DNA of 64,000 nucleotides, from contig NZ_CP127385.1 of the NCBI RefSeq assembly GCF_030378205.1, positions 4,876,001 through 4,940,000 of the forward strand. Direction: 5' to 3'. Source of the DNA: Bradyrhizobium sp. NP1. GTDB lineage: Bacteria > Pseudomonadota > Alphaproteobacteria > Rhizobiales > Xanthobacteraceae. Under the pieces are notes generated by a model. It was not told where the DNA came from and made no database searches. It saw nothing but the letters and a program-made list of their open reading frames with translations. Positions 6,128 through 45,128 of the stretch are shown in pieces (position 1 is the stretch's first letter; each line of letters starts with the position of its first letter). Position numbers and translations under genes: made by a program.

Positions 6128-6997
6128 ATGTCATCCCTCAGAGGCAAGACGCTGTTTATCTCGGGCGCGAGCCGCGGGATTGGGCTTGCGATCGCGCTGC
6201 GGGCCGCACGCGACGGCGCCAATATCGCAATCGCCGCGAAGACGGCGGAACCGCATCCGAAGCTGAAGGGCACCATCTTTACGGCCGCCGACGAGGTGCG
6301 CGCGGCCGGCGGCAAGGCGCTGCCAGTCATCTGCGATATTCGCGATGAGGCCCAGGTGATCGCGGCGGTTGATAAGACCGTCGCCGAATTCGGTGGCATC
6401 AATATCTGCGTCAACAACGCCAGCGCCATCAGCCTGACCGACTCCCAGGCAACCGACATGAAGCGGTTCGACCTGATGATGGGCATCAACACCCGCGGCA
6501 CTTTTATGGTGTCGAAGTATTGTATCCCGCACCTGACGAAGGCCGAAAACCCGCACATCCTGATGCTGTCGCCGCCGCTCGACATGAAGGCGAAATGGTT
6601 CGAGCACTCCACCGCCTATACGATGGCGAAGTTCGGCATGAGCATGTGCGTGCTGGGACTATCGGCCGAACTGAAGAGTGCGGGCGTCGCGGTCAACGCG
6701 CTGTGGCCGCGCACTACGATCGCTACCGCCGCGGTCGGCAATCTTCTGGGGGGCGATGCCATGATGCGCGCGAGCCGCACGCCCGAGATCGTGGGAGATG
6801 CGGCTTATGTCATCCTCACAAAGCCGTCGCGCGAGTTCACCGGGCAGTTCTGTATCGATGACAAGCTGCTGTATGCCAGCGGAGTGCGTGATTTCGACCG
6901 CTATCGCGTCGATGCCTCGGTCCCGCTGGCGTCGGACTTCTTCGTGCCTGACGATGACGCGCCGCCGCCCGGCGTCACGGTAATGCCCCTGCGCTAA
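6128..6997 (+). CDS. SDR family NAD(P)-dependent oxidoreductase (HSDL2-like)
   Basis: A 289-aa short-chain dehydrogenase. It has the Rossmann glycine motif GASRGIG at residues 12-18, the NNAS motif, and the catalytic YTMAK. The HPKLKGTIFTAADEVRAAGG insertion and the LSPPLDMKAKWF segment are typical of hydroxysteroid-dehydrogenase-like protein 2 relatives, often annotated as acting on acyl or hydroxy-acyl substrates. The chosen start has aggagtcctccg immediately upstream; the longer frame begins inside repeat B and is not credible. No partner genes adjoin it. Confidence 0.9.
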   Translation: MSSLRGKTLFISGASRGIGLAIALRAARDGANIAIAAKTAEPHPKLKGTIFTAADEVRAAGGKALPVICDIRDEAQVIAAVDKTVAEFGGINICVNNASAISLTDSQATDMKRFDLMMGINTRGTFMVSKYCIPHLTKAENPHILMLSPPLDMKAKWFEHSTAYTMAKFGMSMCVLGLSAELKSAGVAVNALWPRTTIATAAVGNLLGGDAMMRASRTPEIVGDAAYVILTKPSREFTGQFCIDDKLLYASGVRDFDRYRVDASVPLASDFFVPDDDAPPPGVTVMPLR

Positions 6998-7381
6998 GCC
7001 GGCGCCTTTGCCACTGCGTCAACGTCGGCTTCGGGGCCAATGACAGACATCAGGCTGCGGGCCATGGTGCAGGAGCGGCCTGTCCGGGTCATCCGGACGA
7101 GGATCGATAGCCCGGGATCAACGAAGTCGACGCTTATGCACGGGGCACGATCCGCAAAAATCGGACTACCAACTTGTTGGCGCGCGCCAGATCCTCCAGT
7201 GCGTCGGCCAAATCAAGATCGGCTCATCGGCCCAAGCATTGTACCAAACCCCCAATTTTCGGCGGCATGGAAAACGCAGTGGCGCAACGCCAGTCTTATC
7301 GAGTTCGCCGACTTCTAAATCGCAATCTTCCGGCGCGAGTTGGATCGGTAGCCACGGCATGGCCCACACGAAATCTAGCGC
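6998..7381. other. Intergenic, nothing recognised
   Basis: I see no gene, RNA or clear repeat in this stretch between the SDR gene and the small protein gene at 7382. Confidence 0.4.
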
Positions 7382-17534: not shown

Positions 17535-17614
17535 CTAGTGGTCCTTTGATTCGGACATTCGCATACCCGCTTGAGGAGGCACGTTTGCGAATGTCCGAAC
17601 CAAAGGACCCCTGG
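17535..17614. repeat. Palindromic hairpin element, complete
   Basis: Left arm 17535-17563 (ctagtggtcctttgattcgg then acattcgca) pairs with 17586-17612 (tgcgaatgtccgaaccaaag then gacccct), with only a few mismatches and a loop of about 22 bases. Unlike most other copies the TTT/AAA trinucleotide is present in both arms. It lies between the divergent genes rpiA and gph, so a terminator role is not obvious here. Confidence 0.85.
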
Positions 17615-42135: not shown

Positions 42136-42166
42136 AAAAGCCCGGCCTCTGCGAGGCCGGGCTTTT
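42136..42166 (-). terminator. Rho-independent terminator of the second TRAP binding-protein gene
   Basis: Perfect 14-bp stem aaaagcccggcctc, loop tgc, followed by T on the transcribed strand, 60 bp after the stop codon at 42226. Confidence 0.88.
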
Positions 42167-42225: not shown

Positions 42226-43350
<1,125 letters not shown>

Positions 43351-43425
43351 TTATGGGCATTCTTGATGGGCATTGACGGGCCTTCTTCCGGCAAACGAGC
43401 TTTCGTCTCAAACCGGAGGGCGCCC

Positions 43426-43500
43426 AGTGTGGCGGTTCAGAAGTCCGCATCATTCTAACCAGCGAGTTCGTCATGCGGACTTCTGAACCAAAGCCACACT
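43426..43500. repeat. Palindrome array, element 1
   Basis: Left arm 43426-43450 (agtgtggcggttcagaagtc cgcat), right arm 43473-43500. The arms are exact except for AAA present only in the right arm. Loop about 22 bases. Confidence 0.9.
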
Positions 43501-43514
43501 AGATTGGTGAGTTG

Positions 43515-43590
43515 CCAGTGTCCTTCGATTCCGAAGTTCGCAAACGAGCATGCCGGACAATCATGCGAACTTCGGAACCGGGACACCAGG
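43515..43590. repeat. Palindrome array, element 2
   Basis: Left arm 43515-43542 (ccagtgtccttcgattccga agttcgca), right arm 43564-43590 (tgcgaacttcggaaccggga caccagg). Imperfect near the cap. Confidence 0.88.
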
Positions 43591-43672
43591 CCGGGCTTTA
43601 ACATGAACGGGCCGGCACGAAAACGCGACAAAGGCATGACAGGCCCCAACAAAAGTCGCATATGGGACCGGC

Positions 43673-43748
43673 CTAGTGCCCGCTTTCCGAAGTTCGTGAT
43701 ACATCGCTGCGACCCCTTTCACGAACTTCGGAAAGCAAAGGGCACTGG
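43673..43748. repeat. Palindrome array, element 3
   Basis: Left arm 43673-43699 (ctagtgcccgctttccgaag ttcgtga), right arm 43719-43748; exact apart from one cap base and AAA found only in the right arm. Confidence 0.9.
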
Positions 43749-43822
43749 TGGTCCGACGCCAACATTCGCATCCTCTTTGTAGCAGACACGTTTGCGAATG
43801 TTGGCGTCAAAGGACCACTAGC
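43743..43822. repeat. Palindrome array, element 4
   Basis: Left arm ctggtggtccgacgccaaca ttcgca, right arm tgcgaatgttggcgtcaaag gaccactag. Exact apart from one cap base and AAA only in the right arm. Its cap overlaps that of element 3. Confidence 0.9.
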
Positions 43823-43834
43823 AAATTATTGATT

Positions 43835-43912
43835 CTAGTGGAGCTTTGGATTTGACGTTCGCATAAGGGAATCGCGGCAAATGGGTAGCGAACGTCAAAT
43901 CCGCTCCACTAG
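43835..43912. repeat. Palindrome array, element 5
   Basis: Left arm 43835-43862 (ctagtggagctttggatttg acgttcgc), right arm 43888-43912 (gcgaacgtcaaatccgctcc actag). Exact apart from TTT present only in the left arm. Confidence 0.92.
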
Positions 43913-43925
43913 CAAACTTATGATT

Positions 43926-44003
43926 CCAGTGCCGCTTTCGATCTGAAGTTCCTAAGAGATGATCGCAGCGGGTGGTGTAGGAACTTCAGATCGGCGGCAC
44001 TAG
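43926..44003. repeat. Palindrome array, element 6
   Basis: Left arm 43926-43954 (ccagtgccgctttcgatctg aagttccta), right arm ending cactag at 44003, directly against the mrp stop codon. Exact apart from one cap base and TTT only in the left arm. Confidence 0.92.
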
Positions 44004-45128
44004 TCAGGCCGCGGCGATGGCGCCCTTCAGGCGGTCGCGGACTTGCCCGGCGATGGCGCGGTAGATCGCCGCATGCGGCCCGTCCGGCTCGCTCGCGACC
44101 ACCGGCGTCCCCGAATCGGAGGTCGCGCGAATAGCCATATGCAGCGGGACTTCGCCCAGGAACGGCACGCCGAGCCGCTCCGCCTCGTGGCGCGCGCCGC
44201 CATGGCCGAAAATGTCCGACCGGGTGCCGCAATGCGGGCACTGGAAATAGCTCATGTTCTCGACGATGCCGAGCACGGGCACGTTGACCTTCTTGAACAT
44301 CGCAAGCCCCCGCCGCGCATCGATCAGCGACAGGTCCTGCGGGGTCGAGACGATCACCGCGCCCTTCAGCGGCACGTTCTGCGCCAGCGTGAGCTGGGCA
44401 TCACCGGTGCCCGGCGGCATGTCGACCACGAGCACGTCGAGCGTGCCCCAGGCGACGTCGCGCAGCATCTGGGTGATCGCAGACATCACCATCGGGCCGC
44501 GCCAGATCATCGCGGTGTCTTCCTCGACCAGGAAGCCGATCGACATGATCGCAAGCCCGAAGCGCTCAATCGGGATCATCTTCTTGGCGTCGTTGAGCTC
44601 GGGCTTTTCGCGGATGCCGGTCAGCCGCGGCACCGAGGGGCCATAGATATCTGCATCGAGCAGGCCGACCTTCAGCCCGAGGTCGCGCAGGCCCAAAGCG
44701 AGATTGAGCGCGGTGGTGGATTTGCCGACGCCGCCCTTGCCGGAGGCGACCGCGATCACCGCGGAGACGCCGGGGATTTCCGCCTGACGCGCCATCGGCG
44801 AGGGTCCGCCCTGCGGCGGGCGATGCGATGCGGCGGGCGGCACGCCCGTGCCCGGCCGGCGCGGCGCAGGCGCGCTGCCTGGCTTGCGCTCCGCGGTCAA
44901 GGCGATCATTGCGGCGGTCACACCCGGAATGGCGCGCACGACGCTTTCTGCCTGCGCGCGCACGCTCTCCCAGGCGCGCGCTTCCGCTGCGTCGACGTTG
45001 ATCGAGAAGAACACCTTGCCGTCGCTGACCGATATCTCCGACAGGACATTGGCATGGGTCACGGCGACGCCGCGGGGCGACATCACCCTGGAAAGCTGAT
45101 CCAGAACCTGCTGCTGCGTAACGCCCAA
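44004..45128 (-). CDS. mrp: Mrp/NBP35 family ATP-binding Fe-S carrier protein
   Basis: 374 aa. An N-terminal DUF59/MIP18 domain (VLDQLSRVMSPRGVAVTHANVLSEI) is joined by a Pro/Arg linker to the P-loop ATPase with deviant Walker A GKGGVGKST (about residue 130), switch segments DADIYGPSVPRL and VDMPPGTGDAQL, and the CxxC motif FQCPHCGTR that holds a bridging Fe-S cluster. It delivers Fe-S clusters in the cytosol. The stop codon abuts palindromic element 6. Downstream of a VOC gene on the same strand. Confidence 0.95.
   Translation of the reverse strand: MGVTQQQVLDQLSRVMSPRGVAVTHANVLSEISVSDGKVFFSINVDAAEARAWESVRAQAESVVRAIPGVTAAMIALTAERKPGSAPAPRRPGTGVPPAASHRPPQGGPSPMARQAEIPGVSAVIAVASGKGGVGKSTTALNLALGLRDLGLKVGLLDADIYGPSVPRLTGIREKPELNDAKKMIPIERFGLAIMSIGFLVEEDTAMIWRGPMVMSAITQMLRDVAWGTLDVLVVDMPPGTGDAQLTLAQNVPLKGAVIVSTPQDLSLIDARRGLAMFKKVNVPVLGIVENMSYFQCPHCGTRSDIFGHGGARHEAERLGVPFLGEVPLHMAIRATSDSGTPVVASEPDGPHAAIYRAIAGQVRDRLKGAIAAA

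Follow-up and report, generated by a model that had tools for sequence, protein, structure and literature searches.

Six hairpins of a Bradyrhizobium array form three paired units, probably copies of a small mobile element with an IS630-family parent

In the 64,000 nt of Bradyrhizobium sp. NP1 analysed here (the window; contig NZ_CP127385.1, positions 4,876,001 to 4,940,000), a window scan places six long hairpins with CTAG-like caps at 43424-44003. This array is made up of three units, not six elements: a C-D unit, an E-F unit, and an A-B unit that sits within the E-F unit, at the inner CTAG of hairpin 3 (Table 1). We consider it likely that the three are copies of a non-autonomous element (MITE) of about 165 bp with palindromic ends, and that the parent is an IS630-family (Tc1/mariner-type) transposon. 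A previous sequence-only reading saw the six palindromes, and missed that the hairpins stand in fixed pairs and that the six are three units, one nested within another.

With a minimum arm length of 12 bp, the window scan gave eight hairpins. Six are those of the array; a seventh, further upstream, is related to them (last line of Table 1), and no partner hairpin was detected for it; the eighth, at 42136, is unrelated. Three order-1 Markov shuffles of the window gave 0, 1 and 0 hairpins, and DNA folding of the six gave z-scores of -5.7 to -9.7, with 0 of 200 shuffles equally good for each. The scan, the shuffles and the folding substantiate the six palindromes of the sequence-only reading. The AAA/TTT insertion which it described in one arm of four or five elements is also found, being exactly TTT/AAA and one-armed in five of the six hairpins; hairpin 2 has instead a TT bulge and a mismatch. 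Pfam identifies the genes on the two sides of the array: at 42226-43314, on the minus strand, one for a DctP-family solute-binding protein, and at 44004-45128, on the same strand, one for a P-loop NTPase like ApbC/Mrp. The stop codon of the latter immediately adjoins the outer CTAG of hairpin 6. The inner CTAG of hairpin 3 reads CTGG and is common to hairpin 4. An intact E-F unit was found at 393212-393378 of the window's genome. Nesting is likewise seen in another genome (L110); tandem units with one CTAG in common occur at 6749-7082.

Table 1. Hairpins and spacers of the array, and a lone related hairpin, in positions of the window
Feature	Position	Strand	Description
Hairpin 1, type C	43424..43502	-	Cap TGTGGC, TTT bulge, stem GGTTCAGAAGTCCGCAT
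C-D unit spacer, 12 nt	43503..43514	-	
Hairpin 2, type D	43515..43589	+	Cap TGTCC, stem TTCCGAAGTTCGCA; forms the C-D unit together with hairpin 1
Hairpin 3, type E	43673..43748	-	Left part of the E-F unit, which the A-B unit splits
Hairpin 4, type A variant	43745..43821	-	First half of the nested A-B unit
Nested A-B unit spacer, 13 nt	43822..43834	+	caaattattgatt
Hairpin 5, type B	43835..43912	+	Closes the nested A-B unit
Original spacer of the E-F unit	43913..43925	+	caaacttatgatt, displaced by the nested A-B unit
Hairpin 6, type F	43926..44003	+	Right half of the E-F unit
Lone dispersed hairpin akin to type A	17535..17614	+	CTAGTGGTCC TTTG ... CCAAAGGACCCCTGG; ends set by eye

A unit of about 165 bp consists of two hairpins of about 76 nt in opposite orientation, on either side of an AT-rich spacer of about 13 nt, and each hairpin has a one-armed bulge of 2-4 nt turned towards the spacer. 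Our full-geometry detector scored 43 hairpins at 26 or more in 464 kb of the window's genome and none in one shuffled copy; a reversed-sequence control was uninformative because palindromes survive reversal. Neighbours at most 30 nt apart (n = 64) were spaced in 59 cases, by 13 nt in 38 of them, and had one CTAG in common in five; both bulges were turned to the spacer in 56 of the 59 spaced pairs. A partner was found on the bulge side of 175 of 188 hairpins, on the opposite side of 5 of 206, and at 2 of 400 random places. Complete units (n = 74) have a mean length of 167 bp, and the ORFs of at least 80 aa inside units, judged by reading, include no transposase. Genome-wide the stems fall into discrete subfamilies; each has its constant partner, which is oppositely oriented and stands about 13 nt away.

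The spacer consensus is about CAANTNTATGATT in one orientation. GANTC sites are enriched to 1.95 per unit against 0.31 expected, and such a site lies within the spacer in 28 of the 74 units against 6.6% when shuffled; one may speculate that movement could be coupled to methylation. An exact IHF site occurs in only 3 of 68 spacers, yet the spacers are closer to it than shuffled spacers. Two chimeric hairpins (L217:3853-3927 and L235:6012-6082), each with two caps from different subfamilies, suggest recombination between units.

The mobile entity is the 165-bp pair, which goes into a CTAG site and has CTAG on either side afterwards. Genome G010 holds seven complete units, and the five copies inspected show 0-3 differences in 165 bases and unrelated flanks, while three copies from other genomes show 5-6 differences from them. 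One G010 unit lies between convergent reading frames, the stop codons of both being inside its two CTAGs. The flanks of this unit joined at a single CTAG gave an unbroken match over 1-704 in 25 of 257 genomes among the matches listed, with 81-91% identity and CTAG at the junction in 21 and TTAG in 4 of these; further genomes among the matches listed cover most of the query at lower identity. As relatives have an unbroken site with a single CTAG, insertion doubled the target CTAG; this is based on one G010 copy, in which duplication of a 2-bp TA and of a 4-bp CTAG look the same. Genome G514, which is 94-95% identical at this locus, has this unit too, interrupted by another insertion that is unrelated. 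The insertion is a small repeat starting with AAGCGCGATGAGATTAGG in the inner CTA of the unit (L361, G514:C52), and it has relatives elsewhere in these genomes, e.g. at L052:4676. The flanks of one G480 unit are present in the window's genome (G000) without the unit. The sequence-only reading argued from the differing stems that the array is no simple transposon copy series, a view which we do not share, as the stems belong to subfamilies, and it is whole 165-bp pairs that move.

Congener loci that correspond to that of the array (n = 29) have no such hairpin between the two flanking genes, and the gap there measures 155-189 bp in 23 and 710-790 bp in six of them. The longer gaps (L025, L045, L047 and three more) hold unrelated sequence, which in the three inspected is apparently a small conserved reading frame. 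In older copies we reject the outer CTAG as a plain duplication: among spaced pairs with a non-CTAG outer tetramer, 0 of 19 had equal outer tetramers. The hairpins' own tetramers (169 hairpins) were both changed complementarily in 10 cases, changed on one side in 31, and both changed non-complementarily in 9; the window's C-D unit, with CCAG on both sides, falls below the score cut of this count. Gene-end targeting was also rejected, there being no excess over other CTAG sites.

The target preference of IS630 is TA in 5'-CTAG-3', according to a title cited in PMC2170065. A search of G010, G514 and G042 with outer-arm sequence at up to three mismatches led to a G514 element whose inverted ends, each with CTAG on its outer side, stand 1213 bp apart. 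The frames which they enclose are broken and have matches to DDE_3 and to the IS630 transposase model (E 9e-29 and 5e-14). Since this element was found through its arms, its arm match is not independent. Across 16 genomes the transposase model itself had matches in 15, over cut-off in eight; CTAG-flanked ends could be fixed at 11 of 18 IS630-search loci and at none of the other seven. The 11 represent six kinds, each bounded by CTAG on its two sides. The outer arms are matched by three kinds, with 18 and 17 of 20 bases at the two ends (G514), 15 and 18 (G010 C1 8407k) and 16 and 15 (G010 C2 305k), the maxima for permuted arms being 13-15. The non-matching kinds gave 14 and 11 (G197), 11 and 10 (G602 C153) and 7 and 8 (G449 C6). 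Inner arms read without a gap reached only 8-11 of 20 against the three matching kinds, so the counterpart of the IS end is the arm on the outside, which has no bulge. This outer arm corresponds gaplessly to the terminal inverted repeats found in some IS630-family elements, and the inner arm is an inverted copy offset by 2-4 nt.

In the window the outer arm of type D has 16 of 20 bases in common with both ends of the G514 element, while the other arms (A, B, C, E, F) reach 6-13 of 20 against the IS630 ends found. As only D is near an IS630 end, the IS630 parentage of A, B, C, E and F rests on shared architecture. The window's genome has no IS630 match over cut-off, and its two weak matches are its own IS481-type copies. 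Of the two richer congeners, G480 gave none over cut-off and G602 two; the ends of one of these do not match, and those of the other were not found.

It could be argued that the paired-hairpin element is moved by another enzyme, either of IS481 type or some transposase or recombinase for which the hairpin fold with its bulge is the signal, the likeness to IS630 being then a matter of the CTAG target and some end bases. We regard this as unlikely, even if no matching IS630 was found in the three richest congeners (G000, G480, G602) and the conserved bulge and perfect arms suggest that structure is read. The IS481 copies of G000 are also at CTAG, and IS481 ends agree with the arms at 14 and 13 of 20 bases where the permutation mean is about 10. 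However, these copies are flanked by six-base NCTAGN repeats, unlike the CTAG of the units, and IS630 ends located by the protein model reach 18 of 20; IS481 is accordingly not favoured as mobiliser. The LZ_Tnp_IS481 model matches in 8 of 25 genomes, some of them rich and some poor in elements. Two IS481-type copies of G000 are identical (L137 and L144; G000:C1:739202 and 7077560) and have TCTAGG and TCTAGA repeats at their flanks. In G449 (L125) a hairpin lies about 100 bp from an IS200-type TnpA; this candidate was discarded, the hairpin being on one side only. The short G449 contigs show no transposase between hairpins.

To follow the arms we used 69 elements of the window's genome, chosen by 12 cap bases only and not by palindrome; they derive from 70 among the matches listed of 158 places, one incomplete element being left out. 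All 69 form the hairpin. At 20 unselected arm positions pairing was 19.16 of 20 between an element's own arms against 12.45 of 20 with arms swapped between elements, and up to four Watson-Crick pair types occur per arm position. A bulge of 2-4 nt is present in 68 of the 69 and is TTT in 40. Five subfamilies have at least four copies; their changes involve both arms in 26 cells (11 distinct changes) and one arm only in 19, against 0.04 both-arm cells expected under independent change. These figures confirm that both arms changed together, as the sequence-only reading put it. They also place the stems in a real dispersed element class, as opposed to one-off repeats or arms that vary independently.

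In the three largest subfamilies the conservation of outer and inner arms is equal (0.943/0.945, 0.955/0.955 and 0.882/0.893), and that of the loops is 0.652, 0.719 and 0.647. Likeness between copies is 0.88-1.00 in the arms and lower, 0.65-0.89, in the loops. Neither this contrast nor the lasting one-armed bulge is explained by arm-to-arm conversion alone, another suggestion of the sequence-only reading; it possibly contributes.

Strong covariation of the arms is also what one would expect from paired host signals under selection as RNA or DNA, such as terminators, RNA-stabilising hairpins or protein-binding palindromes, and a gene 3' end lies at most 12 nt from 15 of 49 merged units, of which at least three look unrelated. 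We nevertheless find such signals very improbable. Near-identical copies occupy unrelated sites, the orthologous gap is without the hairpin in all 29 congener loci mentioned above, and the unit CTAG falls on a TAG stop codon in 10 of 49 cases, the same share as for other CTAG sites (53 of 267). No Rfam match reached the gathering threshold within the window, which disfavours also the structured-RNA class proposed by the sequence-only reading. Non-Watson-Crick cells at arm positions 6-24 comprise 16 A.C and 6 G.T on the TTT strand, hence no wobble excess on that strand. On the opposite strand the counts reverse to 16 G.T and 6 A.C, so the wobble test is silent on RNA from there. It should be noted that strong base-pair covariation, the usual sign of structured RNA, here comes from mobile DNA, and that covariation screens can be misled.

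Under the preferred reading of a MITE with an IS630-family parent, an IS630-family transposase would act in trans, bind the outer arms, cut at the TA of CTAG and insert the unit at another CTAG. Because units carry CTAG inside, they would insert into one another and build arrays; the CTAG sites within units would thus attract further insertions and explain arrays such as that of the window. Stem subfamilies may exist because the ends track different transposases, and the co-varying arms would then be a record of joint change of transposases and binding sites. The conservation of the inner arms, equal to that of the outer arms with caps included, is a puzzle, as a plain end-repeat model does not need it. 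Our first choice is that the inner arms stay matched because the same transposase binds them uncut, cutting being prevented because the offset spoils the spacing. Hairpin-templated copying between arms perhaps helps to keep them matched, and alternatives to uncut binding would be that the hairpin is recognised in its folded form or that one arm serves as template for the other. Tentatively, and with more doubt than belief, we speculate that the palindrome is part of the mechanism: in transposition or its control, each end would be recognised either in its hairpin fold or as a double site with an offset, and the bulge of 2-4 nt would mark the inner arm as uncuttable. If so, structure and not sequence would be inherited, and IS630-type ends would diverge freely while the arms stay matched across Alphaproteobacteria.

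The units resemble IS630-family insertion sequences (Tc1/mariner type) in their CTAG/TA target and in outer arms that match the ends of three of the six kinds. They differ in being gene-less and in having as ends palindromes with an inverted, offset second arm, unseen by eye in the IS630 copies inspected. RUP of Streptococcus pneumoniae and Correia/NEMIS of Neisseria are IS630-type MITEs. The units are likewise small, gene-less and intergenic with a TA-type target, whereas two full hairpins per unit and subfamilies with co-varying arms set them apart, in a comparison of descriptions and not of sequence. RUP measures about 108 bp according to PMC2267715.

REP/BIME repeats, as described in PMC3733652, have in common with the units paired inverted palindromes, complementary stem variants and patchy copy numbers; their tags are GTAG or CGTC and their stems 5-13 bp. 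Unlike these, the units have CTAG on both sides and arms of about 25 bp, and lack a link to the REP-associated tyrosine transposase (RAYT). That the units are REP/BIME repeats moved by RAYT is extremely improbable in spite of the paired inverted palindromes, the arrays and the RAYT genes in the window's genome, since the repeat beside both RAYT loci is another one, with GTAG, and such hairpins are lacking there. RAYT matches over cut-off occur, moreover, in none of 15 element-rich genomes from outside the genus but in 5 of 6 element-poor congeners. The two genes (L020 and L021; G000:C1:1466708 and 5441865) are each flanked by ordinary GTAG-tagged REP (GTAGGGTGGGCAAAGC...GTGCCCACC), apart from the CTAG hairpins. 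Palindromic or long intergenic repeats of Alphaproteobacteria include RIME of rhizobia, Bru-RS of Brucella (103-106 bp) and the Caulobacter repeats. The units are like these by description, in being palindromic or long and intergenic in Alphaproteobacteria and in their GANTC enrichment, and part of the class may already have been described under one of these names. Caulobacter intergenic repeats with methylation sites are named in the title of Chen and Shapiro 2003. Our literature search, made mostly without subscription papers, found no description of such paired-hairpin units.

The units are spread patchily across Alphaproteobacteria. An exact-cap pattern gave matches in 96 of 397 genomes order-wide, with at least 10 in 19, and within the genus in 139 of 265, with at least 10 in seven; low counts are partly chance matches without a hairpin. 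The seven richest congeners have 495, 212, 158 (the window's genome), 18, 17, 14 and 13 matches. The reversed pattern gave 58 in the window's genome against the 158, a control which is hard to interpret because the pattern contains GATC. With hundreds of units in single genomes and almost none in most relatives, bursts of tiny transposons become testable. Eighty loci of named genomes among the matches listed contained a hairpin in 41 and a detected pair in 29. Hairpin loci among the matches listed belong to Hyphomicrobium, Afipia, Mesorhizobium, Caulobacter, Chelatococcus, Devosia, Paramagnetospirillum and other Alphaproteobacteria, and one is labelled as an Acidobacteria MAG (L177). The plasmid collection gave three records, two of whose places were inspected, and the phage collection none. 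Many G449 contigs (L155-L164, L286-L305) start or stop at these hairpins, and hence the units seem to break short-read assemblies. A different long-palindrome family, with CTAG near its ends (TTGTCATTTCGA...TCGAAATGACAA), was seen in Flavobacterium panacis (L243:5778-6473).
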